Shown here: piece by piece, positions 912 to 60,137 of the stretch | How the letters are laid out: each line of letters opens with the position of its first letter | Numbering within the stretch: position 1 is the first letter of the stretch | NCBI RefSeq assembly: GCF_947623445.1 | Contig: NC_135245.1 | Location: 17,863,501-17,927,500 of the forward strand | Length of the DNA: 64,000 nt | Origin: Clavelina lepadiformis | Lineage: Eukaryota; Chordata; Ascidiacea; Aplousobranchia; Clavelinidae | Direction of reading: 5' to 3' | Position numbers and translations under genes: made by a program | The notes under the pieces: model-generated | Told to the model about the DNA's origin: nothing | The model's database searches: none | What the model saw: only the letters and a program-made list of their open reading frames with translations

Positions 912-11611
<10,700 letters not shown>

Positions 11612-38795: not shown

Positions 38796-40604
38796 TTAAG
38801 TTCCGTGTTTAAGAAAATGTCTGGGAGTCAATGTTCGAGTAAGATTCCTACTTTTTTGGCAAAATCCGATATCCACACGAACAGCTGAAGACAAGGTTTT
38901 GTCAGTTGTGTCCACAGACTTCAAAATGTTTAAGGCTTCCTTGTAGGATAGCATTTTAACTAGGGAACGGGCAACGTAATATTTTCCCCAAGGGTCTCCC
39001 ATAGTTACTTGGTCCCTTTTCCAATCTTCCGTGATGTAATCGTAGTATCCGAGTTTGTATGCAACCATGTATTTCATGTACGGCTGGAAACTGAATGTTA
39101 GCTTAGCTGGGAGTGACGATGGGTCCAGATTTCGAAGAACTTTCTGCAAGGCAAGCGCTATGACGAAATACTGGACAATATCTTCCATTTTTGCATATTT
39201 TTTCAACAGAACGGTAACCTGACGATCCATACAATTAACGTAATCATGTTGAGACTTGTACTCCATGTATCTACTGAGTCGAACTTTGCAAGCAACTGCC
39301 ACTGCTAATTTTAGTTTTTCTGCAGTTTCGTGATCAATAATTTGCTTTCCTTTAAGGCTTTTAACCACAGAAAATGACGAAGCTTCGTCGATATTATACA
39401 TTCTTCCTAAGGCAGAAATGAACAGAGTGACGCTTCTGTAAATAACTCTTTTGATATTACATTGAGTTGTTTCACGCATGCGCATTAGATCAGTAAATGC
39501 GTCAAAGTTTTTTAAGTCTTCATTCAGTCCTTGCATCACCTGACATTGCGTTGAGAATTTGTTTTCTTTCTTTTTTCGTCTCACAGCTTCTACGAATTGT
39601 TCATATAAGCCCTTATCTCCACTTACGTAGCAACTCTGCAGAAGTATCTGATCAAGATGATAACCGTTCTTAAGACTGACATCGGATTTTAAATATTCCA
39701 GCATCTTATTAACTGGTTTGATAAGTTCAGTAATCCACGGTTTATCTTTTGTCTCAAATGTTCTTCCAAGTGGATTTTTGCAAGCATGGGCCATAAGTCC
39801 ATCCAAAGTAATGCCTCGTGTGGTATAAGCGTCATAAAACCAATTACCACCTGGAGTTGTGTAATCATTTAAACTTGGAATGGCAACACTAGGAATAATC
39901 GTTTCTTGCAAGTTGATGAGAATGATGAGGAAAATGAGTGAAAACCAGCGAAACTGTTCCTGGGTTTCAGAATAGTTTTCGTCATCTTCAATTCCATTTT
40001 CAAGCAATATAATGTGTTCAAAATCGGAGTATGGAGTTATTTCGTTTCGAGCCAGCGAACCTAAACCTGCTATGGCAAATTTACAAGGTAGTCCTTCAAA
40101 TATACTTATGCAAGTTTGAAAAAGTTCATGCATAACATTGATATATTTTTGGCTAATTTGTCGTTGATTCTTTTTGACTTGTTTTACAACGCTTTTTCCT
40201 GAAGCAGATATTTCTAAAATTTTCAAGACAATTTTTCTAAGCGTCGTCACTTTTTTGGCTATTTTGTTTGAGATTTCGACGAGATCATATCCCTGATTTT
40301 TCACTTGAGCTTTATTTAAAACATAAGAACAAAAATCCCTCAAATCTTTTGTGAAAGTTTTGTTTTCTGGTTCTCTTGCTACTGCAGCGTTTAATAAAGC
40401 AGCACTTTGTATCAGACAAATTTTGCTGTGGGAGATTTCAGCCTTTCTTTGGTAAAGTATTCCCAGTTCGTGGAAGATTTCAGCTGCTTTAACGGAATCT
40501 TTTTCCTTCCCATTCTCGTCACAAATATCTTTCAGTGTTTTAGCCAGACGGCTTTCTTCATCAGCTACACAATTTTCCACATTAACAGTTGACGTTTTAA
40601 TCAT
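38796..40604 (-). CDS. NT1: nucleotidyltransferase-like protein (GlnD/DUF294 type) with TPR-like helices
   Basis: Single-exon gene, the most divergent member of the array. The frame is open from 40658, but I place the start at the second Met (40604), because there the protein aligns with the N-termini of the paralogues; this gives 602 residues. Features in order: an N-terminal helical pair KAAEIFHELGILYQ...; the nucleotidyltransferase motif AGLGSLARNE-TPYSDFEH; a conserved block WFYDAYTTRGITLDGLMAHA; and C-terminal TPR-like helices (YYVARSLVKMLSYKEALNIL). The motif matches the G-S-x(n)-D-x-[DE] signature of GlnD/DUF294-type enzymes, with Asp-x-Glu as presumed metal ligands. Likely cytosolic. 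The central third is almost identical in DNA to NT2-NT6, although both ends are clearly diverged. Substrate unknown. Confidence 0.8.
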   Translation of the reverse strand: MIKTSTVNVENCVADEESRLAKTLKDICDENGKEKDSVKAAEIFHELGILYQRKAEISHSKICLIQSAALLNAAVAREPENKTFTKDLRDFCSYVLNKAQVKNQGYDLVEISNKIAKKVTTLRKIVLKILEISASGKSVVKQVKKNQRQISQKYINVMHELFQTCISIFEGLPCKFAIAGLGSLARNEITPYSDFEHIILLENGIEDDENYSETQEQFRWFSLIFLIILINLQETIIPSVAIPSLNDYTTPGGNWFYDAYTTRGITLDGLMAHACKNPLGRTFETKDKPWITELIKPVNKMLEYLKSDVSLKNGYHLDQILLQSCYVSGDKGLYEQFVEAVRRKKKENKFSTQCQVMQGLNEDLKNFDAFTDLMRMRETTQCNIKRVIYRSVTLFISALGRMYNIDEASSFSVVKSLKGKQIIDHETAEKLKLAVAVACKVRLSRYMEYKSQHDYVNCMDRQVTVLLKKYAKMEDIVQYFVIALALQKVLRNLDPSSLPAKLTFSFQPYMKYMVAYKLGYYDYITEDWKRDQVTMGDPWGKYYVARSLVKMLSYKEALNILKSVDTTDKTLSSAVRVDIGFCQKSRNLTRTLTPRHFLKHGT

Positions 40605-40639
40605 AATTTGACTACCGCGTACTGTGTATAATATGATAT

Positions 40640-41215
40640 CTGCTGTACCTTTATACAATATTAAGAAAAGAACAAGATTATTTTGCTTGCCGTTGCTGAA
40701 TTGTTTTCTGATTATTATCTGTTATTCGTCAATACTGTACACGACAAGCTAAGCTATAACTCGGCGATAAATAAGAGAATAAAACCGTCTTTTTTAAGTA
40801 GTCATACTCTGTCTGTAATATCCGGATGCACCCACTGAGTGAGTAAGACACCGTGACGTGACATGAATAGTTCCTACGATAAACAGTTAACGTCATAAAC
40901 ATCCCGCACATTACCAACACATTTTAAAACGTGAGGTTCTAAAGAAACTTTATGGACTTGTTATACCGGAAGTTGGCGCTGCTAGAAATTGATGTATATA
41001 TGGAAATAACAAAAACTATAGTTATACATTACACTATAGTGTTACCATTCGAAAACAAAACTTACAGTTAACCATTTTACAGTAATATGGTAGCAACACG
41101 CACATTTTCCAGTCATCCAAAGAAAAAATAAATTAGCAAACCAGTACCGAAAACAAAATTTGCATAAGTGAAATAACAAAATAAAATACACCACTTATAA
41201 CTCTATTTTTATGTA
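40640..41215 (-). repeat. Duplicated NT1 upstream region (copy at 45501-46085)
   Basis: About 580 bp upstream of NT1 is nearly identical to 45501-46085 upstream of the truncated NT1-like pseudogene. Shared blocks include CGTGACGTGACATGAATAG, ATACCGGAAGTTGGCGCTGC and CAAAATTTGCATAAGTG. Both copies lose similarity immediately after ATTTTTATGTAAA, which marks the breakpoint. Confidence 0.9.
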
Positions 41216-41226
41216 AAAAATACAAT

Positions 41227-41502
41227 TAGAACGTTGAAACAGAAGACCTCCAAATCCGACCGGAATTTCTAATTGCTTGGCTGTCGCGCTACTGCTGCGT
41301 TCAACAAGGTAGCACTTTGTATGAGACAGATTTTGTTTTGTAACTTATTACCTTTGTCTTGATACAACAATCCCAGTTTATGGAATATTTCCGCTGCCAG
41401 CTTTGGGTCGATTTCTCTGCCATTTCCATCACAAGTTATTCTTAAACTTTCCCTCAAATAAGTTTCTTCTTCGGTGAAATGAATGTTAGCACTAGTGGTC
41501 AT
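41227..41502 (-). pseudogene. NT N-terminal fragment (about 95 codons, with stop)
   Basis: Starts MTTSANIHFTEEETYLRESL and aligns with the N-termini of NT2-NT6. A stop replaces the Glu after QPSN (codon 78). Similarity continues through RSDLE-FCFNVL and ends abruptly at the boundary with the duplicated NT1 upstream block. It is the remains of a sixth NT2-type gene deleted by the insertion or recombination that brought NT1 here. Confidence 0.85.
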
Positions 41503-42880
41503 CTTATTGGTGTTTAAGATGATTACTTGACCAACTGTTTTAAATTTTTAAGCAAGACAGCCTAGGTATGTTCCGTACTGTTTAACATATTTATGCATAT
41601 TCATAACTGTGGCTAAATTAAAATCTAGGAGTGCAATATAGCCACTTAAAATTCTACTAAATGCAGTTACTTTAATTGTTATAGATACTTTTATAAAAAA
41701 AACGCTTCAAAATCACTTTTATAGCTTAAATAAGAGTATCAAAATTATCACTCCGATCTCAAACTACCTCTGCTCTTAAATAAATGATAGCTTGCTACGT
41801 TTTGTAAGAATTCACTTTGCCAGGAAAGCCGATTATTTCCTATAAAGTAAGCTGTATTACTTATACCCTTCTATGTTTACGTACAATATAAACGCATAAC
41901 TAATTTGGCGTTCTTAATCTCAGCGATTTCAATATCCGGTTTGATTGTTTTATACTTTCTTGCTCAATTGTATGCTGAAACTATATATAGAATATAGATG
42001 ATACTTTCGTATTTATGCAATTAATTATGAGCAATAACTTTTGGCGAAAAACAGTTTTATAAGATGAATACATTCCTATTTATAGTTGAACGACCAGAAT
42101 TACTGTATAAAATATTTTCTAAGCCACCTTTTTGTCACTTTGTAACTGTGGTAATTTTAGACGGAGTTGTATAAGATTTACACCACAGCACAGGCTAATG
42201 TTCGTTTTTATTAAAGTAATACATTTTATCGGCTCAATGGCAGTACAAAAAAGTTAAATTAATGCGGAAACAAAGCTCGATGCATCAAAACTGAAAAGTA
42301 TCAAATATTAAGTCGGCAGTCTAAGTTAAGTCGAGTTTTACTGAACGTAGGCTAAGTCTTTGTACGATCTCGTTACGCCTCACTTATTCGACGCCTGCGC
42401 ACTCTTATGACTGTATTAGATGGGGATGCCAACTGATTGTTCCCAAAGACTGGACACTTGTTGTGAGAACGAATGCTTGCCTGGGATATCCATTCTCGTC
42501 TTGACCTTTTTACAGCTTTTCCCAACCACTGATGCTCTCAAGTTTAAAATCTATACAACACGACTGTCACGAATTGAAACAATAGTCAAATTATTTCCAA
42601 AACTATATATTTGTTACATATTTTTTCCACTCTACAGTGGGAATAATGTGTTATTTAATTTTGTACATACAATTGTGCACCGATAAAACACAAGTCGTTT
42701 ATAAGGACAGCTTAGCTGTGCACGTATACAAAAGTCAACTACTAGGTTGCATTGCAAATCAAGCTTTTAGGCCTTATAGTCCGTTAATTTGAGAATCTTT
42801 ATTTTCAAGTTTCGATGAACACACACATTCCTCATTTGTTTTTGTATAACTTACATTGTATTACCAGAGATTAAAGCTAT
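41503..42880. other. NT intergenic unit (repeated between array members)
   Basis: Homologous to 50336-51738, 53602-55003 and 56867-58268. Each contains a TATATATAGAATATAGATGA block upstream of the gene on its left, and a TTTATT (AATAAA on minus; here 42798-42803) about 80 nt after the stop of the gene on its right. The plus-strand 88-codon ORF at 42420-42686 recurs in the other copies but changes mostly at amino-acid-altering sites, so it looks noncoding. Confidence 0.6.
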
Positions 42881-44767
42881 TCACCAGGACTGATGGACAA
42901 GAGTGACAGCAAAGGATTGCGCAGGGATCGACAATAAAGCTCCTTCAGCATTTCCCCGACAAAGTTTTTCAGCTTCATTAATGTTTGCAGAAATGGCATT
43001 CTTCAAATCTCCATTTTCCGTTTTAATAGCTTTGAAAACTTTTAGAGCCTTTTGCCAAGACTTTTTTCTTAAATGGGCGCGTCCGACATAATACTTGATC
43101 CAAACTACGTCAGAAAATGATGGACAGTTTTGCTCCATTCTCCATTGCAAAATAACATAATCGTAATATCCGAGCTTGTACGCGACCATGTATTGCAGCA
43201 AAGGTTTTGTGTCGAAGACGAGATTATCTGGAAGTTTTAAATAATTCAAGCCCCGAATAATTTTCTGCAAGGACAGTGCGGTGACAAAGTACCGCACAAT
43301 CTGTTCCATTTTGACATATTTCGTCAACTGGAAGCTGACGTGATCTTCATCAGTTGCATCTGATTCTAAGTGATCTTTCTGAGACTTTTGTTCCATGTAT
43401 CTACTGAGTCGAACTTTGCAAGCAACTGCCACTGCCATATTCAATTCATCTGTAATTTCATCTTCTATAATTTTGTTTTCTTTAAGGCCTATTATGATAG
43501 AAAATGACGAAGCTTCGTCGATGTTATACATTCTGCCCAACGCTGAAACAAAGAGAGTGACGCTTCTGTAAATAACTCTTTTAATATTACATTGAGTAGT
43601 TTCTCGCATGTGCATTAAGTCAGTAAATGCGTCAAAGTTTTTTAAGTCTTCATCGAGTTCCTGCATCATTTGCGAGTGAGACGACAGTTTGTTTTCTTTT
43701 GTCATTCTATTTACTCCAGTTTTAAATTGCTCATAAACATCTTTATCCCCACTTACGTAGCAACTCTGCAAAAGTATCTCACCCAGATGATAACCGTTCT
43801 TTAGACTGACATCGGGTTTTAAGTATTCCAGCATCCTATTAACTGGTTGAATGAGTTCAGTAATCCACGGTTTATCTTTTGTTTCAAATGATCTTCCAAG
43901 TGGATTTTTGCAAGCATGAGCCATAAGTCCATCCAAAGTAATGCCTCGTGTGGTATAAGCGTCATAAAACCAATTACTACCTGGAGTTGTGTAATCATTT
44001 AAACTTGGAATGGCAACACTGGGAATAATCGTTTCTTGTAAGTTGATGAGAATGATGAGGAAAATGAGTGAAAACCAGCGAAACTGCTCATGAATTTTAG
44101 AATAGTTTTCGTGATCTTCAATTCCATTTTCAAGCAGTATAATGTGTTCAAAATCGGAGTATGGAGTTATTTCGTTTCGAGCCAACGAACCTAAACCTGC
44201 TATGGCAAATTTACAAGGTAGTCCTTCAAAAAGTTTTATGCATTCGTTAAAAACGTTTTTCATAATCTTTGTGTACATCTGGCCAATAGTTTTTTGAATG
44301 CTTTCCATTCTTTTAATGAAGTTCTGCTCTTGGCGACGCTTTGGTTTGAAAACAGTAAACCGAGAAATATTCTTTCTCATTTTGCGCAGAACTATTTTCC
44401 TCATATATTTTATTTCCTTGGCAGTTTTGTTTGAAAGTTTTAGTAAATCAGCATTTTGTTTCTTGACCCCAGCAGTACTTAGAACGTTGAAACAGAAGGC
44501 CTCCAAATCAGACCGGAATTTCTCATTGCTTGGCTGTCGCGCTACTGCTGCGTTCAACAAGGTAGCACTTTGTAAGAGACAGATTTTGTTTTGTAACTTA
44601 TTACCTTTGTCTTGATACAACAATCCCAGCTTATGAAATATTTCCGCTGCCAGCTTTGGGTCGACTTCTTCGCCATTTTCATTACAATTTTTTCTTAAAT
44701 CTTCCCTCAAATAAGTTTCCTCTTCAGTAAAATGATTACTCTCAAGAATGTTAGCACCAGTGGTCAT
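42881..44767 (-). CDS. NT2: nucleotidyltransferase-like protein (GlnD/DUF294 type), 628 aa
   Basis: Intact single-exon gene. Residues 37-80 form a TPR-like helical pair (AAEIFHKLGLLYQ...ATLLNAAVA). A basic stretch at 118-150 (RKIVLRKMRKN...KPKRR) precedes the catalytic-type motif GLGSLARNE (191-199) and TPYSDFEH (201-208); Asp205 and Glu207 are the presumed metal ligands. Residues 229-285 carry WFSLIFLIILINLQE and NWFYDAYTTRGITLDGL, conserved in all paralogues. The C-terminus has a further TPR-like pair (YYVGRAHLRKKSWQKALKVF). In GlnD and related enzymes this fold transfers UMP or AMP to proteins or small molecules. Whether this family is active is unknown. The start is fixed by conservation of MTT[GS]ANILESN among copies. 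A minus-strand AATAAA lies at 42803-42798. Confidence 0.82.
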   Translation of the reverse strand: MTTGANILESNHFTEEETYLREDLRKNCNENGEEVDPKLAAEIFHKLGLLYQDKGNKLQNKICLLQSATLLNAAVARQPSNEKFRSDLEAFCFNVLSTAGVKKQNADLLKLSNKTAKEIKYMRKIVLRKMRKNISRFTVFKPKRRQEQNFIKRMESIQKTIGQMYTKIMKNVFNECIKLFEGLPCKFAIAGLGSLARNEITPYSDFEHIILLENGIEDHENYSKIHEQFRWFSLIFLIILINLQETIIPSVAIPSLNDYTTPGSNWFYDAYTTRGITLDGLMAHACKNPLGRSFETKDKPWITELIQPVNRMLEYLKPDVSLKNGYHLGEILLQSCYVSGDKDVYEQFKTGVNRMTKENKLSSHSQMMQELDEDLKNFDAFTDLMHMRETTQCNIKRVIYRSVTLFVSALGRMYNIDEASSFSIIIGLKENKIIEDEITDELNMAVAVACKVRLSRYMEQKSQKDHLESDATDEDHVSFQLTKYVKMEQIVRYFVTALSLQKIIRGLNYLKLPDNLVFDTKPLLQYMVAYKLGYYDYVILQWRMEQNCPSFSDVVWIKYYVGRAHLRKKSWQKALKVFKAIKTENGDLKNAISANINEAEKLCRGNAEGALLSIPAQSFAVTLVHQSW

Positions 44768-44935
44768 CTTACTAATGTTTAAGCTAATTACTTGACCAAT
44801 TGTTTTAAATTTCTAAGCAAGACAGCCTAGGATGTTGCGTACTGTTTAACACATACTTGCTTATTTATAACTATGACTAAATTAAAATTTTGCTCGAAAA
44901 AACAAACATTATCCAGTATTTCATCTGGTCTGATG

Positions 44936-45002
44936 CAGCATCAGTCATTTCAGTCATTTCAGTCATTTCAGTCATTTCAGTCAGTCATTGTTTCAGTCAT
45001 TT
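44936..45002. repeat. Short tandem repeat (TCAGTCATTT)n at a rearrangement junction
   Basis: Several direct copies of TCAGTCATTT with one irregular unit. It lies exactly between sequence upstream of NT2 and the broken NT1-like pseudogene, so it may mark or have promoted the breakpoint. NT6 has the same upstream sequence (ATCTGGTCTGATGCA) without the repeat. Confidence 0.9.
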
Positions 45003-45467
45003 GTGTAATCATTTAAACTTGGAATGGCAACACTGGGAATAATGGTTTCTTGTAAGTTGATGAGAATGATGAGGAAAATGAGTGAAAACCAGCGAAACTG
45101 CTCCAGGATCTCAGAATAGTCAATTTGGTGCTGAACATTATCTTCAAGCAGTATAATGTGTTCAAAATCGGAGTATAGAGTTATTTCGTTTCGTACTGTC
45201 CTTCAAATCTTTTGTGAAAGTTTTGTTTTCTGGTTCTCTTGCTACTGTAGCGTTTATTAAAGCAGCACTTTGTATCAGACAATTTTTGCTCGGCGACATT
45301 TCAGACTTTCTTTGGTAAAGTACTCCCAGTTCATGGAAGATTTCAGCTGCTTTAACGGAATCTCTTTCCTTCCCATTCTCGTCACAAATATCTTTCAGTG
45401 TTTTAGCCAGACGGCTTTCTTCATCAGCTACACAATTTTCCACATTCACAACTGAGGTTTTAGTCAT
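45003..45467 (-). pseudogene. NT1-like pseudogene with internal deletion and 3' truncation
   Basis: From Met at 45467 (frame open from 45521) it encodes an NT1-like N-terminus (ENCVADEESRLAKTL...AAEIFHELG) to about residue 100. It then jumps near 45195 to the catalytic block (RNEIT-YSDFEHIILLED...EQFRWFSLIFLI), losing roughly 90 residues and the frame. It ends at the TCAGTCATTT repeat after the SVAIPSLNDYT region. Promoter-side sequence is retained (45501-46085). Confidence 0.85.
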
Positions 45468-45500
45468 TACTTGACTATCGCGTACTGTGTATAATATGAT

Positions 45501-46085
45501 ATCTGCTGTACCTTTATACAATATTAAGAAAAGAACAAGATTATTTTGCTTGCCCTTGCTGAATTGATGTCTGATTATTATCTGTTATTCGTCAATACTG
45601 TACACGACAAGCTAAGCTATAACTCGGCGATAAATAAGAGAATAAAACCATCTTTTTTAAGTAGTCATACAATGTCTGTAATATCCGGATGCACCCACTG
45701 AGTGAGTAAGACACCGTGACGTGACATGAATAGTTCCTACGATAAACAGTTAACGTCATAAACATCCCGCACATTACCAACAAATTTTAAAACGTGAGGT
45801 TCTAAAGAAACTTTATGGACTTGTTATACCGGAAGTTGGCGCTGCTAGAAATTGGTATATATATATGGAAATGACAAAAACTATAGTTATACACAACACT
45901 ATAGTTTTACCATTCGAAAACAAAACTTACAGTTAACCATTTTACAGTAATAGGCCTATGGTAGCAACACGCACATTTTCCAGCCATCCAAAGAAAAAAT
46001 AAATTTGCAAACCAGTACCGAAAACAAAATTTGCATAAGTGAAATAACAAAATAAAATACACCACTTATAACTCTATTTTTATGT
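45501..46085 (-). repeat. Duplicated NT1-type upstream region, second copy
   Basis: Partner of 40640-41215. It lies 5' of the NT1-like pseudogene in the same orientation. Only scattered substitutions and one small insertion (AGGCCT near 45953) distinguish the two. Confidence 0.9.
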
Positions 46086-47384
46086 AAACAAGTATTTAGT
46101 AACTTACTTGCCGTCGTGCTATAGATAGTTTACCAATAACGTCTAACTCGCCGTTGAGATCTATAAAGTAAATTTGTACAACTTGTTTTTTTCAGTCCAT
46201 GAGGCCTACTCAGCTCATGGCTTGCTTTCGTTTTGATCAAAAATTTTGTTAACATAATAATAATAGAAACCTACAAGTTAATTTTTTCTACAATTTTTAT
46301 CCTAAAACTGTGCACAATGCTCTCTCTTTTCAAACACTCTGCTTGATGATGTTTAATTTCTATTTCAATTAATTTTTGTGGAAAATGTTTGGATGTCGCA
46401 AAATGAACTTAGGAGTATGTGTTGAATTAACAGCAGAAAATTGCAGAAACATTTTTTAGGAATACAATAGAAAGCAATGCAAACGTTTCGGTCGATATCA
46501 CAAACCTTTTGAATATGACGTATAAATAATTGCATGCAACACTCTGTTATATGTAGGGCAGTGAAAGAAAAATGAGATGAAACACAAAGTAAACCAACTG
46601 CATTTTTTCTAACAAAAAAAATAATATTAAGACGCTTAATTCGCTAAACTAATGTCTACCTTTCAAACGCGGTTTTATTGGCACAATACTTACTTCTTTT
46701 CTTTAAAATAGCCTTAATGTAGCTGTAACGCCAAAAAATGTGTCCTGGTCGCTAAGTGCCAGACGCCAAACGAGAAATGGGCTTGTTTATGATCCTTTAT
46801 GACCGAAAACTCGTGCAGACACGACAGATTGAGGAAACACACACTGCGTGTCGAAACTAGAGCCTGTCTGACTTTAGGTATCAAGCGAACAGGTTCACTC
46901 TTCAGAATCACTTATAGCAGAGCGTATCAGCGGCACTGTATTGTGATGATACGTCATTCAGCACAAACTGCACAGTTTTTCTATAAATTAAAATAAAATA
47001 TAATCCAATCTGCTAACAACATAATCATATAAATCCAATAAAACTGTGACGTAATCCTTAATCCAATGTTATCACATCATAGCTTAAAAATCGTTCTACA
47101 GTGCTTCTATAAGATAAGGTGTACATATAAATGATAAAATGCAATAATTACCAGGTAGTTGTTGGTTAACTGATAGGATTTACATAATCAAACAAAATAC
47201 CCGCGTGGTATGACCTTTAGCTTAAACTTAAATGAAGGCTCAATAAAGAACTTTCAAAGCAGGATAGTAGGATTCGCTGTACGACATTAACCACGAGCGC
47301 AACCACACCATAAAAGACACGCGATGACATTCCAGCCAAATCTGGCGAAATATTATGACGATTTACGATGTAACAGTAGCCTTT
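46086..47384. other. Intergenic, nothing recognised
   Basis: Unlike the other array spacers, this stretch has no counterpart elsewhere in the window. Short overlapping ORFs near 46714-46996 on both strands lack any domain. Confidence 0.4.
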
Positions 47385-48448: not shown

Positions 48449-50335
48449 TCACAAGGACTGATAAATAACAATGGTAGGAATGGATTGCGCCGGAAACGAC
48501 AATGAAGCTCCTTCAGCATTTCCCCAACAAAGATTTTCAGCCGCATTAATGTCTCCAGAAATGGCATTCTTCAAATCTCCATTTTCTATTTCAATATCTT
48601 TGAAAACTTTTAGAGCCTTTTGCCAAGACTCTTTTCTTACATGGGCGCGTCCGACGTAGTACTTGATCCAAACTAGGTCAGAAGATGATGGACACATTTG
48701 CTCCATTTTCCATTGCAAAATGACATATTCGTAATAGCCGAGCTTGTACGCGACCACGTATTTCAGCAAAGGTTTTGTGTCAAAGATGAGATTATCCGGA
48801 AGTTTTAAATAATTCAAGCCCCGAATGACTTTCTGCAAGGACAGCGCGGTGACAAAGTACCGCACAATCTGTTCCATTTTGACGTATTTCGTCAACTGCA
48901 AGCTGACGTGCTCTTCATCATTTGCATCTGATTTTAAGTGATCTTTCTGAGATTTTTGTTCCATGTATCTACTGAGTCGAACTTTGCAAGCAACTGCTAC
49001 TGCTAATTTTAGCTTTTCTGCAGGTTCGTGAACAATAATTTGCTTTTCTTTAAGGCTTTTTATGATAGAAAATGACGAAGCCTCGTCTATACCATACATT
49101 CTGCCCAACGCTGAAACAAAGAGAGTGATGCTTCTGTAAAAAACTCTTTTGATATTACATTGAGTCGTTTCACGCATGCGCATTAAGTCAGTAAATGCGT
49201 CAAAGTTTTTTAAGTCTTCATCGAGTTCCTGCATCATTTGCGAGTGAGACGACAGTTTGTTTTCTTTTGTCATTCTATTTACCCCAGTTTTAAATTGATC
49301 ATAAACATCTTTATCCCCACTTACGTAGCAACTCTGCAAAAGTATCTCACCCAGATGATAACCGTTCTTCAGACTGACATCGGGTTTTAAATATTCCAGC
49401 ATCTTATTAACTGGTTGAATGAGTTCAGTAATCCACGGTTTATCTTTTGTTTCAAATGTTCTTCCAAGGGGATTTTTGCAAGCATGGGCCATAAGTCTAT
49501 CCAAAGTAATGCCTCGTGTGGTATAAGCGTCATAAAACCAATTACCGCCTGGAGTTGTGTAATCATTTAAACTTGGAATGGCAACACTGGGAATAATGGT
49601 TTCTTGTAAGTTGATGAGAATGATGAGGAAGATGAGTGAAAACCAGCGAAATTGCTCGTGAATTTTAGAATAGTTTTCGTGATCTTCAATTCCATCTTCA
49701 AGCAATATAATGTGTTCAAAATCGGAGTATGGAGTTATTTCGTTTCGAGCCAGCGAACCTAAACCTGCTATGGCAAATTTACAAGGTAGTCCTTCAAAAA
49801 GTTTTATACATTCGTTAAAAAGGTTTTTCATAATCTCTTTGTACATCTGGCTAATAATTTCTTGAATGCTTTCCATTCTTTTAATGAAGTTCTGCTCTCG
49901 ACGACGCTTTGGTTTGAAAACTGTCAAACGAGGAAAATTCTTTCTCATTTTGCGCAGAACTATTTTCCTCATATGCTTGATTTCCTTGGCAGTTTTGTTA
50001 GAAATTTTTACTAAATCAGCATTTTTTTTATTGACCCCAGCAGTACTTAGAACGTTGAAGCAGAAGGCCTCCAAATCAGACCGGAATTTCTCATTGCTTG
50101 GCTGTCGCGCTACTGCTGCGTTCAACAAGGTAGCACTTTGTATGAGACAGATTTTGTTTTGTAACTTATTACCTTTGTCTTGATACAACAATCCCAGTTT
50201 ATGGAATATTTCCGCTGCCAGCTTTGGATCGACTTCTTCGCCATTTTCATCACAATTTTTTCTTAAATCTTCCCTCAGATAAATTTCGTCTTCGGTGAAA
50301 TGATTACTCTCAAGAATATTAGCACTAGTCGTCAT
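48449..50335 (-). CDS. NT3: nucleotidyltransferase-like protein (GlnD/DUF294 type), 628 aa
   Basis: Intact single-exon gene, collinear with NT2 over its full length, with the same start context (MTTSANILESN). The TPR-like N-terminus, basic segment, GLGSLARNE/TPYSDFEH motif and WFYDAYTTRG block are all preserved. One variant in the conserved block is TLDRLMAHA instead of TLDGLMAHA. A short stretch after SSFSIIKSL (KEKQIIVHEPAEKLKLAVAVA) matches NT1 rather than NT2, NT4, NT5 or NT6, so this copy is a mosaic. A minus-strand AATAAA lies at 48372-48367, about 80 nt after the stop. Function as for NT2: possible nucleotide transfer, substrate unknown. Confidence 0.82.
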   Translation of the reverse strand: MTTSANILESNHFTEDEIYLREDLRKNCDENGEEVDPKLAAEIFHKLGLLYQDKGNKLQNKICLIQSATLLNAAVARQPSNEKFRSDLEAFCFNVLSTAGVNKKNADLVKISNKTAKEIKHMRKIVLRKMRKNFPRLTVFKPKRRREQNFIKRMESIQEIISQMYKEIMKNLFNECIKLFEGLPCKFAIAGLGSLARNEITPYSDFEHIILLEDGIEDHENYSKIHEQFRWFSLIFLIILINLQETIIPSVAIPSLNDYTTPGGNWFYDAYTTRGITLDRLMAHACKNPLGRTFETKDKPWITELIQPVNKMLEYLKPDVSLKNGYHLGEILLQSCYVSGDKDVYDQFKTGVNRMTKENKLSSHSQMMQELDEDLKNFDAFTDLMRMRETTQCNIKRVFYRSITLFVSALGRMYGIDEASSFSIIKSLKEKQIIVHEPAEKLKLAVAVACKVRLSRYMEQKSQKDHLKSDANDEEHVSLQLTKYVKMEQIVRYFVTALSLQKVIRGLNYLKLPDNLIFDTKPLLKYVVAYKLGYYEYVILQWKMEQMCPSSSDLVWIKYYVGRAHVRKESWQKALKVFKDIEIENGDLKNAISGDINAAENLCWGNAEGASLSFPAQSIPTIVIYQSL

Positions 50336-51738
50336 CTTACTAATGTTTAAGATGTTTCTTTGACGATTTGTTTAAAATATTTAAGCAAGAAAGTCCTGGT
50401 ATGTACCGTACTCTTTAATTAACATATATATGCGCATTCATAACTGTGGCTAAATTAAAATCTAGGAGTGCAATATATTCACTTAAAATTCTACTAAATG
50501 CAGTTATTTTAATTTTTATAGATATTTTTATACAAAAACCGCTTCAAAATCACTTTTATAGCTTAAATAAGAGTATCAAAAATTATCACTCCGATCGCAA
50601 ACTACCTCTGCTCTTAAATAAACGATAGCTTGCTAAGTTTTGTAAGAATTCACTTTGCCAGGAAAGCCGATTATTTCCTGTGAAGTAAGCTGTATTGCTT
50701 ATACCCTTCTTTGTTTACGTACAATATAAACGCATGACTGGTTTGGCGTTCTTAATCTCAGAGATTTCAATATCCGGTTTTATTGTTTTGTACTTTCTGG
50801 CTCCATTGTCTGCCGAAACTATATATAGAATATAGATGATACTTTCGTATTTATGCAAATAATTATGAGCAATAACTCTTGGCGAAAAACAGTTTTATAA
50901 GCTGAATATATTCCTATTTATAGTTGAACGACCAGAATTACTGTATAACATATTTTCTAAGCCACCTTTTCGACACTTTGTTACTGTGGTAATTTTAGAC
51001 GAAGTTGTATAAGATGTACACCACACCACAGGCTAATGTTTGTTTTTATTATAGTAACACATTTTATCGGCTCAATGGCAGTACAAGAAAGTTAAATTAA
51101 TGCGGAAACAAAGCTCGATGCATCAAAACTGAAAAATATCAAATATTAAGTCGGCAGTCTACGTTAAGTCGAGTTTTACTGAACGTAAGTCTTTGCACGA
51201 TCTCGTTACGCCTCACTTGCTCGACACCTGCGCACTCTTATGACTGTATTAGATGGGGATGGCAACTGATTGTTCCCAAAGACTGGACACTTGTTGTGAG
51301 AACGAATGCTTGCTTGGGATTTCCATTTTCGTCTTGACCTTTTTGCAGCTTTTCCCAACCACTGATGCTCTCAAGTTTAAAGTCTATGCAAAACGACTGT
51401 CACGAAATGAAGGAATTGTCAAATTATTTCCAAAACTGCATATTTCTTACATATTTTTTCCGCTCTACAGTGGGAATAGTGTGTTGTTTAATTTTATACA
51501 TACAATTGTGCACCAATAAAACACAAGTGGTTTATACTGATAGCTTAGCTGTGCGCGTGTACAAAAGCCAACTATTAGGTTGAATTGCAGATCAAGCTAT
51601 TAGGCCTTATGGGTTCAGCTGTTCAAAAGCAATGTAGTCCGCTAATTGTATTATCTTTATTTTCAAGTTTCGATGAACACACACGTTTCCTCATTTTTTT
51701 TGTAAGATTTACATGGTATTACCAGAAATTAGAGCTAT
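50336..51738. other. NT intergenic unit
   Basis: Homologous to the spacers at 41503-42880, 53602-55003 and 56867-58268. Contains the NT3 promoter side, with the TATATATAGAATATAGATGA block near 50820, and the 3' flank of NT4. The 88-codon plus-strand ORF recurs at 51253-51519. Confidence 0.6.
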
Positions 51739-53601
51739 TCACCAGGGCTGATCAACAACAGTGTCAAGAATGGAATGCCCAGAAATCGACAATGAAGCTC
51801 CTTCAGCAGTATTAATGTTTGCAGAAATGGCATCCTTCAAATCTCCAATTTCCGTTCCAATAGCTTTGAAAACTTTTAAAGCCTTTTCCCAAGACTCTTT
51901 TCTTACATGGGCGCGTCCGACATAATACTTAATCCAAACTACGTCAGAAGATGATGGACAGTTTTTCTCCATTTTCCATTGCAAAATAACATAATCGTAG
52001 TAACCGAGCTTGTACGCGACCATGTATTTCAGCAAAGGTTTTGTGTCGGAGACGAGATTATCCGGAAGTTTTAAATAATCCAAGCCCCGAATGACTTTCT
52101 GCAAGGACAGCGCTGTGACAAAGTACCGCACAATCTTCTCCGTTTTGACATATTTCGTCAACTGCAAGCTGACGTGATCTTCATCGTTTGCATCTGATTT
52201 TAAGTGATCTGTCTGAGATTTTTGTTCCATGTATCTACTGAGTCGGACTTTGCAAGCAACTGCTACTGCCATATTCAGTTCATCTGTAATATCAGATTTT
52301 ATAATTTTGTTTTCTTTAAGGCTTTTTATGATAGAAAATGACGAAGCCTCGTCTATACCATACATTCTGCCCAACGCTGAAACAAAGAGAGTGACGCTTC
52401 TGTAAATAACTCTTTTGATATTACATTGAGTCGTTTCACGCATGCGCATTAAGTCAGTAAATGCATCAAAGTTTTTTAAATCTTCATCGAGTTCCTGCAT
52501 CATTTGCGAGTGAGACGACAGTTTGTTTTCTTTTGTCATTCTATTTACTCCAGTTTTAAATTGCTCATAAACATCTTTATCCCCACTTACGTAGCAACTT
52601 TGCAAAAGTATCTCACCCAGGTGATAACCGTTCTTTAGACTGACATCGGATTTTAAATATTCCAGCATCTTATTAACTGGTTGAATGAGTTCAGTAATCC
52701 ACGGTTTATCTTTTGTTTCAAATGTTCTTCCAAGGGGATTTTTGCAAGCATGAGCCATAAGTCCATCTAAAGTAATGCCTCGTGTGGTATAAGCGTCGTG
52801 AAATCAATTACCACCTGGAGTTGTGTAATCATTTAAACTTGGAATGGCAACACTGGGAATAATGGTTTCTTGTAAGTTGATGAGAATGATGAGGAAAATG
52901 AGTGAAAACCAGCGAAACTGCTCGTGAATTTTAGAATTGTTTTGGTGATCTTCAATTCCATCTTCAAGCAATATAATGTGTTCAAAATCGGAGTATGGAG
53001 TTATTTCGTTTCGAGCCAGCGAACCTGAACCTGCTATGGCAAATTTACAAGGCAGTCCTTCAAAAAGTTTTATACATTCGTTAAAAAGGTTTTTCATAAT
53101 CTCTGTGTACATCTGGCTAATAATTTCTTGAATGCTTTCCATTCTTGTAATGAAGTTCTGCTCTCGACGACGCTTTGGTTTGAAAACTGTCAAACGAGGA
53201 AAATTCTTTCTCATTTTGCGCAGAACTATTTTCCTCGTGTGCTTTATTTCTTTGGCAATTTTGTTAGAAATTTTTACTAAATCAGCATTTTGTTTCTTGA
53301 CCCCAGCAGTACTTAGAACGTTGAAACAGAAAGCCTCCAAATCAGACCGGAATTTCTCATTGCTTGGCTGTCGCGCTACTGCTGCGTTCAACAAGGTAGC
53401 ACTTTGTATGAGACAGATTTTGTTTTGTAACTTATTACCTTTGTCTTGATACAACAATCCCAGCTTATGGAATATTTCCGCTGCCAGCTTTGGATCGACT
53501 TCTTCGCCATTTTCATCACAATTTTTTCTTAAATCTTCCCTCAGATAAATTTCGTCTTCGGTGAAATGATTACTCTCAAGAATATTAGCACTAGTCGTCA
53601 T
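51739..53601 (-). pseudogene. NT4: NT family member with a single nonsense codon (W266stop)
   Basis: The frame is open for 620 codons except for TGA at codon 266, where the paralogues have the Trp of NWFYDAY. Immediately after it, Tyr is also changed (FHDAY). Everything else, including GSGSLARNE/TPYSDFEH upstream and the C-terminal TPR-like part, is uninterrupted, so inactivation is recent, or the stop is a polymorphism or tolerated. Truncation after residue 265 would keep the catalytic-type motif but lose the conserved WFYDAYTTRG block. A downstream Met (52758) starts a 339-codon frame, but its use is unsupported. An extra difference from NT2 is AGSGSLAR in place of AGLGSLAR. Confidence 0.8.
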
Positions 53602-55003
53602 CCTACTAATGTTTAAGATGTTTCTTTGACGATTTGTTTAAAACATTTAAGCAAGAAAGTCCTGGTATGTACCGTACTCTTTAATTAACATATATATGCG
53701 CATTCATAACTGTGGCTAAATTAAAACCTAAGAGTGCAATATATTCACTTAAAATTCTACTAAATGCAGTTACTTTAATTGTTATAGATATTTTTATAAA
53801 AAAACTGCTTCAAAATCACTTTTATAGCTTAAATAAGAGTATCAAAATTATCATTCCGATCGCAAACTACCTCTGCTCTTAAATAAATGATAGCTTGCTA
53901 CGTTTTGTAAGAATTCACTTTGCCAGGAAAGCCGATTATTTCTTATGAAGTAAGCTGTATTGCTTATACCCTTCTATGTTTACGTACAATATAAACGCAT
54001 GACTAATTTGGCGTTCTTAATCTCAGCGATTTCAATATCCGGTTTGTTTGTTTTGTACTTTCTGGCTCAATTGTCTGCCGAAACTATATATAGAATATAG
54101 ATGATACTTTCGTATTTATGCAAATAATTATGAGCAATAACTCTTGGCGAAAAACAGTTTTATAAGCTGAATATATTCCTATTTATAGTTGAACGACCAG
54201 AATTACTGTATAACATATTTTCTAAGCCACCTTTTCGTCACTTTGTTACTGTGGTAATTTTAGACGAAGTTGTATAAGATGTACACCACAGGCTAATGTT
54301 TGTTTTTATTAAAGTAGGCTAATACATTTTATCGGCTCAATGGCAGTACAAGAAAGTTAAATTAATGCGGAAATTTAAGCTCGATGCATCAAAACTGAAA
54401 AATATCAAATATTAATTCGGCAGTCTACGTTAAGTCGAGTTTTACTGAACGTAAGTCTTTGCACGATCTCGTTACGCCTCACTTGCTCGACGCCTGCGCA
54501 CTCTTATGACTGTATTAGATGGGGATGGCAACTGATTGTTCCCAAAGACTGGACACTTGTTGTGAGAACGAATGCTTGCCTGAGAAATCCATTCTCGTCT
54601 TGACCTATTTGTTGCTTTTCCAAACCACTGATGCTCTCAAGTTTAAAATCTATACAACACGACTGTCACGAAATAAAACAATAGTCAAATTATTTCCAAA
54701 ACAGTATATTTGTTACATATTTTATCCACTCTACGGTGGGAATAATGTGTCATTTAATTTTGTACATACAATTGTGCACCAATAAAACACAAGTCGTTTA
54801 TACTGATAGCTTAGCTGTGCGCGTGTACTAAAGCCAACTACCAGGTTGCATTGTAGATCAAGCTTTTAGGCCTTATAGGCTCAGTTTTTCAAAGCCAATG
54901 TAGTCCGTTAATTTTAGAATCTTTATTTTCAAGTTTCGATGAACACACACATTTCTCATCTGTTTTGTGTGACTTACGTGGTGTTACCAGACATTAAAGC
55001 TAT
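53602..55003. other. NT intergenic unit
   Basis: NT4 promoter side plus NT5 3' flank, with a minus-strand AATAAA at 54927-54922. Practically identical to 56867-58268. Contains the recurrent 88-codon plus-strand ORF (54519-54785), judged noncoding. Confidence 0.6.
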
Positions 55004-56866
55004 TCACCAGGGTTGATCAGTAACAGTGTCAAGAATGGAATGCCCAGGGATCGACAATGAAGCTCCTTCAGCAGCATTAATGTTTGCAGAAATGGCAAAC
55101 TTCAAATATCCATTTTCCGTTTCAATAGCTTTGAAAACTTTTACAGCCTTTTCCCAAGACTCTTTTCTTGCATGGGCGCGTCCGACATAATACTTAATCC
55201 AAACTACGTCAGAAGATGATGGACAATTTTTCTCCATTTTCCATTGCAAAATAACATAATCGTAATATCCGAGCTTGTACGCGACCATGTATTTCAGCAA
55301 AAGTTTTGTGTCGGAGACGAGATTATCCGGAAGTTTTAAATAATCCAAGCCCCGAATGACTTTCTGCAAGGACAGCGCTGTGACAAAGTACCGCACAATC
55401 TTCTCCGTTTTGACATATTTCGTCAACTGCAAGCTGACGTGATCTTCATCGTTTGCATCTGATTTTAAGTGATCTGTCTGAGATTTTTGTTCCATGTATC
55501 TACTGAGTCGGACTTTGCAAGCAACTGCTACTGCCATATTCAGTTCATCTGTAATATCAGATTTTATAATTTTGTTTTCTTTAAGGCTTTTTATGATAGA
55601 AAATGACGAAGCCTCGTCTATACCATACATTCTGCCCAACGCTGAAACAAAGAGAGTGACGCTTCTGTAAATAACTCTTTTGATATTACATTGAGTCGTT
55701 TCACGCATGCGCATTAAGTCAGTAAATGCATCAAAGTTTTTTAAATCTTCATCGAGTTCCTGCATCATTTGCGAGTGAGACGACAGTTTGTTTTCTTTTG
55801 TCATTCTATTTACTCCAGTTTTAAATTGCTCATAAACATCTTTATCCCCACTTACGTAGCAACTTTGCAAAAGTATCTCACCCAGGTGATAACCGTTCTT
55901 TAGACTGACATCGGATTTTAAATATTCCAGCATCTTATTAACTGGTTGAATGAGTTCAGTAATCCACGGTTTATCTTTTGTTTCAAATGTTCTTCCAAGG
56001 GGATTTTTGCAAGCATGAGCCATAAGTCCATCTAAAGTAATGCCTCGTGTGGTATAAGCGTCGTGAAATCAATTACCACCTGGAGTTGTGTAATCATTTA
56101 AACTTGGAATGGCAACACTGGGAATAATGGTTTCTTGTAAGTTGATGAGAATGATGAGGAAAATGAGTGAAAACCAGCGAAACTGCTCGTGAATTTTAGA
56201 ATTGTTTTGGTGATCTTCAATTCCATCTTCAAGCAATATAATGTGTTCAAAATCGGAGTATGGAGTTATTTCGTTTCGAGCCAGCGAACCTGAACCTGCT
56301 ATGGCAAATTTACAAGGCAGTCCTTCAAAAAGTTTTATACATTCGTTAAAAAGGTTTTTCATAATCTCTGTGTACATCTGGCTAATAATTTCTTGAATGC
56401 TTTCCATTCTTGTAATGAAGTTCTGCTCTCGACGACGCTTTGGTTTGAAAACTGTCAAACGAGGAAAATTCTTTCTCATTTTGCGCAGAACTATTTTCCT
56501 CGTGTGCTTTATTTCTTTGGCAATTTTGTTAGAAATTTTTACTAAATCAGCATTTTGTTTCTTGACCCCAGCAGTACTTAGAACGTTGAAACAGAAAGCC
56601 TCCAAATCAGACCGGAATTTCTCATTGCTTGGCTGTCGCGCTACTGCTGCGTTCAACAAGGTAGCACTTTGTATGAGACAGATTTTGTTTTGTAACTTAT
56701 TACCTTTGTCTTGATACAACAATCCCAGCTTATGGAATATTTCCGCTGCCAGCTTTGGATCGACTTCTTCGCCATTTTCATCACAATTTTTTCTTAAATC
56801 TTCCCTCAGATAAATTTCGTCTTCGGTGAAATGATTACTCTCAAGAATATTAGCACTAGTCGTCAT
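55004..56866 (-). pseudogene. NT5: chimeric NT copy sharing the W266stop of NT4
   Basis: Residues 1 to about 510 are the same as NT4, including the TGA at codon 266 and the AGSGSLAR variant. From the LLLKYMVAYKLG segment to the end it matches NT6 (HARKESWEKAVKVF, SILDTVTDQPW). It is therefore a recombinant of an NT4-type 5' part and an NT6-type 3' part, and the nonsense mutation predates the duplication. Otherwise the frame is open throughout its 620 codons. Confidence 0.82.
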
Positions 56867-58268
56867 CCTACTAATGTTTAAGATGTTTCTTTGACGATTT
56901 GTTTAAAACATTTAAGCAAGAAAGTCCTGGTATGTACCGTACTCTTTAATTAACATATATATGCGCATTCATAACTGTGGCTAAATTAAAACCTAAGAGT
57001 GCAATATATTCACTTAAAATTCTACTAAATGCAGTTACTTTAATTGTTATAGATATTTTTATAAAAAAACTGCTTCAAAATCACTTTTATAGCTTAAATA
57101 AGAGTATCAAAATTATCATTCCGATCGCAAACTACCTCTGCTCTTAAATAAATGATAGCTTGCTACGTTTTGTAAGAATTCACTTTGCCAGGAAAGCCGA
57201 TTATTTCTTATGAAGTAAGCTGTATTGCTTATACCCTTCTATGTTTACGTACAATATAAACGCATGACTAATTTGGCGTTCTTAATCTCAGCGATTTCAA
57301 TATCCGGTTTGTTTGTTTTGTACTTTCTGGCTCAATTGTCTGCCGAAACTATATATAGAATATAGATGATACTTTCGTATTTATGCAAATAATTATGAGC
57401 AATAACTCTTGGCGAAAAACAGTTTTATAAGCTGAATATATTCCTATTTATAGTTGAACGACCAGAATTACTGTATAACATATTTTCTAAGCCACCTTTT
57501 CGTCACTTTGTTACTGTGGTAATTTTAGACGAAGTTGTATAAGATGTACACCACAGGCTAATGTTTGTTTTTATTAAAGTAGGCTAATACATTTTATCGG
57601 CTCAATGGCAGTACAAGAAAGTTAAATTAATGCGGAAATTTAAGCTCGATGCATCAAAACTGAAAAATATCAAATATTAATTCGGCAGTCTACGTTAAGT
57701 CGAGTTTTACTGAACGTAAGTCTTTGCACGATCTCGTTACGCCTCACTTGCTCGACGCCTGCGCACTCTTATGACTGTATTAGATGGGGATGGCAACTGA
57801 TTGTTCCCAAAGACTGGACACTTGTTGTGAGAACGAATGCTTGCCTGAGAAATCCATTCTCGTCTTGACCTATTTGTTGCTTTTCCAAACCACTGATGCT
57901 CTCAAGTTTAAAATCTATACAACACGACTGTCACGAAATAAAACAATAGTCAAATTATTTCCAAAACAGTATATTTGTTACATATTTTATCCACTCTACG
58001 GTGGGAATAATGTGTCATTTAATTTTGTACATACAATTGTGCACCAATAAAACACAAGTCGTTTATACTGATAGCTTAGCTGTGCGCGTGTACTAAAGCC
58101 AACTACCAGGTTGCATTGTAGATCAAGCTTTTAGGCCTTATAGGCTCAGTTTTTCAAAGCCAATGTAGTCCGTTAATTTTAGAATCTTTATTTTCAAGTT
58201 TCGATGAACACACACATTTCTCATCTGTTTTGTGTGACTTACGTGGTGTTACCAGACATTAAAGCTAT
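56867..58268. other. NT intergenic unit
   Basis: Second copy of the 53602-55003 spacer: NT5 promoter side and NT6 3' flank, with a minus-strand AATAAA at 58192-58187. No separate gene supported. Confidence 0.6.
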
Positions 58269-60137
58269 TCACCAGGGTTGATCAGTAACAGTGTCAAGAA
58301 TGGAATGCCCAGGGATCGACAATGAAGCTCCTTCAGCAGCATTAATGTTTGCAGAAATGGCAAACTTCAAATATCCATTTTCCGTTTCAATAGCTTTGAA
58401 AACTTTTACAGCCTTTTCCCAAGACTCTTTTCTTGCATGGGCGCGTCCGACATAATACTTAATCCAAACTACGTCAGAAGATGATGGACAGTTTTTCTCC
58501 ATTTTCCACTGCAAAATAACATAATCGTAGTATCCGAGCTTGTACGCGACCATGTATTTCAGCAAAAGTTTTGTGTCGAAGACGAGATTATCCGGAAGTT
58601 TTAAATAATCCAAGCCCCGAATGACTTTCTGCAAGGACAGCGCTGTGACAAAGTACCGCACAATCTGTTCCATTTTGACGTATTTCGTCAACTGCAGACT
58701 GACGTGATCTTCATCATTTGCATCTGATTTTAAGTGATCTTTCTGAGATTTTTGTTCCATGTATCTACTGAGTCGGACTTTGCAAGCAACTGCCACTGCC
58801 ATATTCAATTCATCTGTAATTTCATCTTCTATAATTTTGTTTTCTTTAAGGCTTTTTAAGATAGAAAATGACGAAGCTTCGTCTATACCATACATTCTGC
58901 CCAACGCTGAAACAAAGAGAGTGACGCTTCTGTAAATAACTCTTTTGATATTACATTGAGTCGTTTCTCGCATGTGCATTAAGTCAGTAAATGCGTCAAA
59001 GTTTTTTAAATCTTCATCGAGTTCCTGCATCATTTGCGAGTGAGACGACAGTTTGTTTTCTTTTGTCATTCTATTTATCCCAGTTTTAAATTGCTCATAA
59101 ACATCTTTATCCCCACTTACGTAGCAACTCTGCAAAAGTATCTCACCCAGGTGATAACCGTTCTTCAGACTGACATCGGGTTTTAAATATTCCAGCATCT
59201 TATTAACTGGTTGAATGAGCTCAGTAATCCACGGTTTATCTTTTGTTTCAAATGGTCTTCCAAGGGGATTTTTGCAAGCATGAGCCATAAGTCCATCCAA
59301 AGTAATGCCTCGTGTGGTATAAGCGTCATAAAACCAATTACCACCTGTAGTTGTGTAATCATTTAAACTTGGAATGGCAACACTGGGAATAATGGTTTCT
59401 TGTAAGTTGATGAGAATGATGAGGAAGATGAGTGAAAACCAGCGAAACTGCTCGTGAATTTTAGAATAGTTTTCGTGATCTTCAATTCCATTTTCAAGCA
59501 ATATAATGTGTTCAAAATCGGAGTATGGAGTTATTTCGTTTCGAGCCAGCGAACCTAAACCTGCTATGGCAAATTTACAAGGTAGTCCTTCAAAAAGTTT
59601 TATACATTCGTTAAAAACGTTTTTCATAATCTTTGTGTACATCTGGCCAATATTTTCTTGAATGCTTTCCATTCTTTTAATGAAGTTCTGCTCTCGACGA
59701 TGCTTTGGTTTGAAAGCAGTAAACCGAGGAAAGTTCTTTCTCATTTTGCGCAGAACTATTTTCCTCATATGTTTTATTTCCTCGGCAGTTTTGTTAGAAA
59801 TTTTTAGTAAATCAGCATTTTGTTTCTTGACCCCAGCAGTAGGCCTACTTAGAACGTTGAAACAGAAGGCCTCCAAATCAGACCGGAATTTCTCATTGTT
59901 TGGCTGTCGCGCTACTGCTGCGTTCAACAAGGTAGCACTTTGTATGAGACAGATTTTGTTTTGTAACTTATTACCTTTGTCTTGATACAACAATCCCAGT
60001 TTATGGAATATTTCCGCTGCCAGTTTTGGGTCGCCTTCTTTGCCATTTTCATCACAAATTATTCTTAAACTTTCCCTCAAATAAGTTTCTTCTTCGTTGA
60101 AATGATTACTCTCAAGAATGTTAGCACTAGTGGTCAT
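58269..60137 (-). CDS. NT6: nucleotidyltransferase-like protein (GlnD/DUF294 type), 622 aa
   Basis: Intact single-exon gene at the right end of the array. It starts MTTSANILESNHFNEEETYL. The N-terminal TPR-like pair, the basic segment, GLGSLARNE/TPYSDFEH, NWFYDAYTTRGITLDGL and the C-terminal TPR-like helices are all present. A two-residue insertion (RP in VLSRPTAGVKK) reflects a small AGGCCT-type insertion. The C-terminus is about eight residues shorter than NT2 and NT3 (NINAAEGAS rather than the longer EKLCRGNAEGA form). It is probably the parent of the NT5 3' part. Family-level expectation: nucleotide transfer to a protein or small molecule, substrate unknown. Confidence 0.82.
   Translation of the reverse strand: MTTSANILESNHFNEEETYLRESLRIICDENGKEGDPKLAAEIFHKLGLLYQDKGNKLQNKICLIQSATLLNAAVARQPNNEKFRSDLEAFCFNVLSRPTAGVKKQNADLLKISNKTAEEIKHMRKIVLRKMRKNFPRFTAFKPKHRREQNFIKRMESIQENIGQMYTKIMKNVFNECIKLFEGLPCKFAIAGLGSLARNEITPYSDFEHIILLENGIEDHENYSKIHEQFRWFSLIFLIILINLQETIIPSVAIPSLNDYTTTGGNWFYDAYTTRGITLDGLMAHACKNPLGRPFETKDKPWITELIQPVNKMLEYLKPDVSLKNGYHLGEILLQSCYVSGDKDVYEQFKTGINRMTKENKLSSHSQMMQELDEDLKNFDAFTDLMHMRETTQCNIKRVIYRSVTLFVSALGRMYGIDEASSFSILKSLKENKIIEDEITDELNMAVAVACKVRLSRYMEQKSQKDHLKSDANDEDHVSLQLTKYVKMEQIVRYFVTALSLQKVIRGLDYLKLPDNLVFDTKLLLKYMVAYKLGYYDYVILQWKMEKNCPSSSDVVWIKYYVGRAHARKESWEKAVKVFKAIETENGYLKFAISANINAAEGASLSIPGHSILDTVTDQPW

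Follow-up and report, generated by a model that had tools for sequence, protein, structure and literature searches.

A large family of DUF294-type nucleotidyltransferase genes in the ascidian Clavelina lepadiformis and its chlamydial relatives

Why does an animal carry a run of bacterial-type nucleotidyltransferase genes, and what might their products do? The question is raised by a stretch of 64,000 nucleotides (nt) from the ascidian Clavelina lepadiformis (RefSeq assembly GCF_947623445.1, contig NC_135245.1, positions 17,863,501 to 17,927,500), here called the window. The genes belong to a family built around the DUF294 nucleotidyltransferase (NTase) domain, which is spread over the whole genome; the closest relatives found outside the animal are effector-like genes of chlamydia-like bacteria with an intracellular life. 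The answer favoured here, which we would give about an even chance, is that the products are protein AMPylators, guided by tetratricopeptide repeats (TPRs), with the evolution of conflict genes.

The array lies between window positions 38796 and 60137. The initial annotation of this DNA had counted four open and five broken or relic family copies there, all on the minus strand, and a list of open reading frames (ORFs) together with tblastn gives the same count (Table 1). Six copies are full length. Four of these are open, and the other two, g52 and g55, have a single stop codon each, at the identical residue, in tblastn alignments that span 626 query residues. Across the last four copies the array repeats with a period of about 3265 nt. 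The coding region is a single open frame in each full copy, with AATAAA 76-77 nt past the stop in five of them and 108 nt past it in the first. Judged from these frames, the coding regions are probably intronless, as had been annotated. One relic resembles g39, the first copy: positions 45199-45498 are 93% identical to 40336-40635. No additional full copy adjoining the array (C6:17902362-17923637) was found in a whole-genome protein search, in which 70 of 147 candidates were scored.

How far does the family extend beyond the window? The Pfam profile DUF294 has 92 matches in the genome, all of them above the curated cut-off, and contigs C1 to C9 are all represented. A search with a window protein adds three loci that are missing from this list (g39, C9:3614332 and C2:2903744), so that the 209-Mb genome carries at least 95 family loci, a lower bound. 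The open frame is at least 600 amino acids (aa) long in 77 of the 92 DUF294 matches, at least 750 in 71 and at least 1300 in 8. An array on C2, at 23.06-23.23 Mb, holds 22 of the 92, all on the plus strand and several with broken frames. Long non-NTase frames, some of them repeated, stand between the tandem NTase genes there (L019-L036), and two of the NTase frames (978 and 1063 aa) share end sequences with these intervening frames. For the profiles of animal cGAS-like and OAS enzymes, the genome has one Mab-21 match and two OAS1_C matches 1.7 kb apart; intron-containing genes were matched exon by exon, which means that these two counts may be low.

The proteins share one order of parts. A helical N-terminus leads into the DUF294 nucleotidyltransferase, behind which come a HEPN-like domain, apparently non-catalytic, and a TPR arm at the C-terminus. 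DUF294 (PF03445) scores 22.7-30.8 bits in all four open window copies, above its gathering score of 21, and 30.9 bits in the single N-terminal half scanned. The initial annotation, which had named a DUF294-type nucleotidyltransferase and proposed PF03445 as a check, was right in this. At E<=0.1, all of the 18 members scanned have a Pfam match to DUF294; 16 also match SidM_N, the profile of the DrrA adenylyltransferase, and 10 match DUF294_C. That the NTase is followed by a DUF294_C/HEPN-like helical domain is seen by way of a Parachlamydiaceae homologue, L044, in which DUF294_C reaches 29.2 bits (cut-off 22.5) and whose core can be aligned to the animal proteins across this region; the animal proteins themselves stay below the DUF294_C cut-off. 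In longer paralogues, with frames of up to 1943 and 2116 aa, TPR_12 arrays follow, with E down to 6.6e-166. The TPR-like part that had been annotated is thus plain to see in paralogues; the window copies show it only faintly (TPR_2 E 0.05 and 0.5), with at most one degenerate repeat (E 0.05).

An alignment of 18 rows shows which residues are kept. G191, G193, S194, L195, R197, E199, T201, P202, S204, D205 and E207 are invariant, and so are R230, W231, F232, D269, D279 and E304, among others. G193-X11-D205-X-E207 fits, in every row, the pattern G-X11-[DE]-X-[DE], which is described as the motif of glutamine synthetase adenylyltransferase and DrrA (PMC8097203). Candidates for the third metal carboxylate are D269 and D279, of which a gammaproteobacterial relative keeps D279 only. 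HEPN ribonucleases have a conserved R-x4-6-H. There is no histidine in the invariant or near-invariant columns of this alignment, so that this ribonuclease motif is not conserved here.

A structure model was built from an alignment of 7 sequences and has a mean predicted local distance difference test score (pLDDT) of 54; an earlier model from four window sequences was discarded (pLDDT 41). The closest folds of this low-confidence model are the protein adenylyltransferases GlnE and DrrA, with DrrA as the best Foldseek hit, and not cGAS or OAS. Its HEPN-like region matches HEPN structures, again at low confidence. With GlnE and DrrA as closest folds, a protein-modifying enzyme appears likelier than the nucleotide-signal or sensing role that the initial annotation had in mind, and the structural comparison it proposed would, at this low confidence, point to GlnE and DrrA and not to cGAS. 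A profile search of the PDB gave weak matches only (TPR designs, CD81, ribosome recycling factor; best E 0.012). Since sequence searches of the PDB are weak, the link to DrrA and GlnE rests on Pfam profiles and the low-confidence fold.

Among known enzymes of related kind, GlnE contains a pair of adenylyltransferase units and has glutamine synthetase as its substrate, DrrA is not known to have a TPR arm, and FICD also carries TPRs. The model resembles GlnE at 9-11% identity. The likeness to DrrA (SidM) lies in the SidM_N profile, the Foldseek hit and the G-X11-[DE]-X-[DE] motif; DrrA differs in being a bacterial effector with Rab guanine nucleotide exchange factor and membrane-binding parts (PMC8097203). 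The metazoan AMPylases FICD and SelO perform the reaction proposed here, with different catalytic folds (PMC8097203). To GlnD there is a weak NTase similarity, and the earlier label GlnD-like does not hold in the sense of a PII uridylyltransferase: the best NCBIfam model gives a window protein 24.1 bits against a full-length equivalog cut-off of 799, and the HD and ACT domains of GlnD are not in the complete Pfam lists of the window proteins. Animal cGAS-like and OAS enzymes belong to the same polymerase-beta superfamily, but the fold matches are others, and the complete Pfam lists of the four open window proteins hold no Mab-21 or OAS1_C match at E<=10; neither is among the families listed for the 18 members, 25 of 29. 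The view that these genes form a subfamily other than cGAS and OAS thus stands. Of the 18 members, 17 are matched at E<=1 by PDC-S09, a candidate defence profile of PADLOC (best 1.8e-6). This says no more than that NTases like these are found in candidate defence loci of bacteria.

Where else are such genes found? A tblastn search of 72,556 plasmid records with a window protein matched a single record, plasmid pS13 of Neochlamydia sp. S13, in 11 places (27.8% identity over aa 36-467 of the window protein, E 7e-25). Three pS13 genes encode an F-box, a helical part, DUF294, a DUF294_C-like part and a TPR array, with a longer spacer in one; their helical N-terminus, NTase and HEPN-like region are as in the window protein. 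By description, these genes appear to fit NEX2, a family of 50 proteins with DUF294 in the middle, C-terminal TPRs and a lineage-specific expansion, mostly beginning with an F-box and with OTU in ten (Domman et al. 2014, PMC4209131). The same authors expect NEX2-like expansion families to act within host cells (PMC4209131). The animal family has the DUF294 core, the C-terminal TPRs (in the window copies a trace only) and the homology to Neochlamydia genes. The N-terminal F-box of NEX2 is neither in the complete Pfam lists of the four open window proteins nor among the families listed for the 18 members and paralogues.

A bacterial scan with an animal-only alignment found no relative. When three Neochlamydia rows were included, a scan of GTDB contigs gave three loci, in one Parachlamydiaceae metagenome-assembled genome (15 matching stretches) and one from a gammaproteobacterium (4 stretches). 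In further scans, limited in scoring to the few top candidates of each genome, there are matches in 33 of 232 Chlamydiota genomes, and 10 of these reach at least 100 bits (the centre Parachlamydiaceae genome included). Among 369 genomes of Gammaproteobacteria, taken as a control, 37 match, in most cases along some 50-80 positions at the NTase motif, and 0 reach 100 bits. The best of them, at 94 bits, is the centre genome, chosen for its hit, and the next has 63; about half of the gammaproteobacterial rows lie in frames of 600-700 aa. Because the query alignment holds three Neochlamydia rows, Neochlamydia-like genomes score high by construction. A comparison of an animal-only profile (18 rows) with a chlamydia-only profile that leaves Neochlamydia out (7 rows) gives a probability of 100 and E 1.4e-51 over 397 columns. 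By this profile evidence and the pS13 matches the animal genes are homologous to chlamydial NEX2-type effector-like genes over about 400 residues. No relative was found in the viral contigs and phages searched.

In both trees the animal rows form one clade (100/100), where the second tree took 19 of 35 animal rows. The fork that would place them inside the chlamydial rows is weak (69/69), too weak to decide the direction of transfer. A single animal clade, intronless open frames and a deeper bacterial spread make us lean, tentatively, towards transfer from bacteria to animal.

Two neighbours of the bacterial genes may be recorded here. Downstream of a chlamydial NTase-TPR gene, a methyltransferase-like frame (L043:7450-8763) has a start that by eye resembles the N-terminus of the L044 NTase protein, which suggests domain shuffling. 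L045:7339-9216 adjoins the gammaproteobacterial NTase-TPR gene and has a peptidase-like stretch by eye, for which Pfam gives nothing convincing.

How does the family change over time? It shows birth-and-death evolution with gene conversion. Copies g52 and g55 do not differ along roughly their first 1500 nt, the stop included, and at its C-terminus g55 matches g58. Two spacers, 53610-55003 and 56875-58268, have the same sequence throughout their 1394 nt, which makes the duplication very recent. In the NTase core, the nt identity of g39 to g43 and g49 is 88-98%; outside the core it is mostly only about 30-80%, but rises to 80-94% along one further stretch, in the HEPN region. At fourfold sites g39 and g43 agree in 48 of 54 cases within aa 185-345 and in 39 of 73 elsewhere (p 1.7e-5), and g39 set against g49 or g58 gives a similar picture; the control pair g43-g49 has no such contrast (51/56 vs 120/135). 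Since the contrast is present in g39 and absent from the control pair, the core of g39 is a conversion tract. Chance or codon constraint as the source of its identity was ruled out on the same two grounds. Both the high turnover and the sequence exchange claimed in the initial annotation are borne out, the former by the recent duplication and the stop common to two copies, the latter by this tract.

Ratios of non-synonymous to synonymous substitution (dN/dS) are 0.30-0.44 between window copies, and 0.62 for the near-identical pair g52-g55. By region, the five close window copies have 0.28 in the N-terminal part, 0.31 in the NTase, 0.27 in HEPN and 0.80 at the C-terminus. In the C2 array, 14 of the 17 genes with frames of at least 750 aa were compared, three with longer aligned stretches being left out. 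The values there are 0.62 N-terminal, 0.19 NTase, 0.43 HEPN and 0.79 TPR. All 7 disjoint pairs have an NTase value of 0.13-0.23 and a TPR value of 0.71-0.99; one N-terminal value is 1.39.

What might such proteins do? As TPR-guided AMPylators, they would use the NTase to transfer AMP (or UMP), most likely AMP, to a protein hydroxyl. The HEPN-like domain would pack next to the NTase, as in GlnE and DrrA, and the TPR arm, the most variable part, would select the target or partners where it is present. The expansion would reflect conflict with intracellular microbes, in which microbial proteins are modified or host proteins guarded; alternatively, the family could be the animal's part in an exchange that also involves chlamydia-like effectors. 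The proposed enzyme class is based on the motif, the profiles and the low-confidence fold, and the proposed conflict role on the number of copies, their turnover and the kinship with chlamydial genes.

Several findings weigh against the AMPylator reading. DUF294_C is under its gathering score in the window proteins, and the TPR arm is nearly absent from the window copies, so that TPR-based target choice, as stated, cannot hold for them. The model has only 7 sequences beneath its mean pLDDT of 54, and the score falls below 50 at residues 151-213, 270-312 and 361-415, where a large share of the late NTase and of the HEPN-like part lies. Neither of the third metal ligand candidates, D269 and D279, is placed in space, and phmmer against the PDB reached DrrA only at E 0.23. 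Within the window the constraint on the NTase is no stronger than on its neighbours, and only the C-terminus differs. A TPR dN/dS of about 0.8 fits relaxed constraint as well as diversification.

Other explanations have to be set beside it. A nucleotide second-messenger synthase or pathogen sensor of the cGAS/OAS kind, as first suggested, would also belong to a nucleotidyltransferase family with many copies, fast turnover and conversion, but it is unlikely given that Mab-21 and OAS1_C are missing from the four open window proteins and that the top fold matches are protein adenylyltransferases. The genome also gave no STING ligand-binding match, in a search without a working control, so that absence is not demonstrated. 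A metabolic or developmental regulator in the manner of PII-like nitrogen control, expanded for dosage, would explain why the NCBIfam PII uridylyltransferase model matches all 18 members, if weakly; but the score is 24 bits against 799, and 95 or more loci, some copies broken, and a TPR part that changes fast are not what a conserved regulator looks like, so that this is quite improbable.

The family could also be mostly a by-product of tandem and dispersed duplication, as retrocopies or the passenger of a mobile element, with little selected function. Single open frames, matches on all of C1 to C9, the long non-NTase frames between the C2 genes and several broken copies would suit this. It becomes very doubtful in view of the low NTase dN/dS in all 7 disjoint pairs, the catalytic residues invariant in all 18 aligned members, and the AATAAA past every full window copy. 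Scaffolds or decoys that have lost catalysis and imitate the NTase-TPR effectors of chlamydiae would have the architecture held in common with NEX2-type genes, and are improbable too: the metal-binding residues are invariant in all 18, and in the C2 array no part is better conserved than the core. The least probable of these explanations is a small-molecule nucleotidyltransferase like the aminoglycoside adenylyltransferases, detoxifying microbial or dietary compounds.

A broader and more tentative idea, possible rather than probable, is that some animals have a large and fast-diversifying set of NTase-fold AMPylators that are shared by gene transfer with chlamydia-like endosymbionts, with a uniform core and a diverging TPR arm. 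The core would be held uniform by selection and gene conversion and the TPRs would diverge for recognition, with the bacteria's versions armed with F-box or OTU.

Table 1. Family copies, relics and parts of copies in the array (window positions)
Feature	Position	Strand	Basis or remark
g39, most divergent NTase-HEPN copy	38796..40658	-	open, 620 aa from TTG, 602 aa from ATG at 40604
Gene-conversion tract in NTase core of g39, approximate	39600..40105	-	nt identity and fourfold sites
Relic, N-terminal fragment, aa 1-96	41227..41502	-	tblastn
g43, open copy, 628 aa	42881..44767	-	ORF list, tblastn, Pfam
Relic, NTase fragment, aa 196-256	45014..45196	-	tblastn
Relic, N-terminal fragment, aa 1-88, g39-like	45204..45467	-	tblastn
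g49, open copy, 628 aa, main query	48449..50335	-	ORF list, Pfam, genome protein search
HEPN-like domain of g49, about aa 346-500	48836..49300	-	DUF294_C below threshold; low-confidence model matches HEPN structures
NTase core of g49, about aa 145-345, G193-X11-D205-X-E207	49301..49903	-	Pfam, 18-row alignment
g52, one premature stop	51739..53601	-	tblastn
g55, premature stop same as g52	55004..56866	-	C-terminus like g58, remainder like g52
g58, open copy, 622 aa	58269..60137	-	ORF list, Pfam, tblastn

The rest of the window holds other genes. At about 1.5-9.3 kb there are trypsin-like serine protease exons (2 of 2 tested matched); by eye, the frames 4861-5244, 5585-5854 and 9029-9307 are protease-like and suggest several tandem genes with introns. 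The plus strand at about 10.8-31 kb has short cysteine-rich frames (CYQC...YC) that are similar to each other and Ly6-like by eye; two of them were tested and have no Pfam match. A 300-aa S-adenosylmethionine methyltransferase occupies one open frame at 17881-18783 on the minus strand (Methyltransf_11 E 1.1e-24). ShK-domain exons lie at 33422-33742 and 33881-34141 (minus) and 37063-37479 (plus), two above the Pfam cut-off and one below, and two of these frames continue into proline-serine-rich low-complexity repeats.

The superfamily and the bacterial NEX2 family are already known. No description of such an animal family was found in open-licence PMC full text. Proteins of this type from other animals are named in UniProt. 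In an eLife paper on TRADD-N domains of bacteria, the part available names a bacterial nucleotidyltransferase and a cGAS-TPR fusion, and not DUF294 or GlnD. The metazoan AMPylases named in the relevant part of a 2021 review are Fic-type enzymes and SelO only (PMC8097203).

A family of 95 or more loci whose GlnE/DrrA-like motif is intact could add a third animal AMPylase fold, and with it a whole layer of protein modification. In this genome the family outnumbers cGAS/OAS-type profile matches, 92 against 1 and 2, with intron-rich genes possibly undercounted. Through its homology to chlamydial effector-like families, it lends itself to testing whether one enzyme serves both parties in a conflict of host and symbiont. 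If the tentative idea of AMPylators shared with endosymbionts is true, host and intracellular bacterium would wield homologous weapons.

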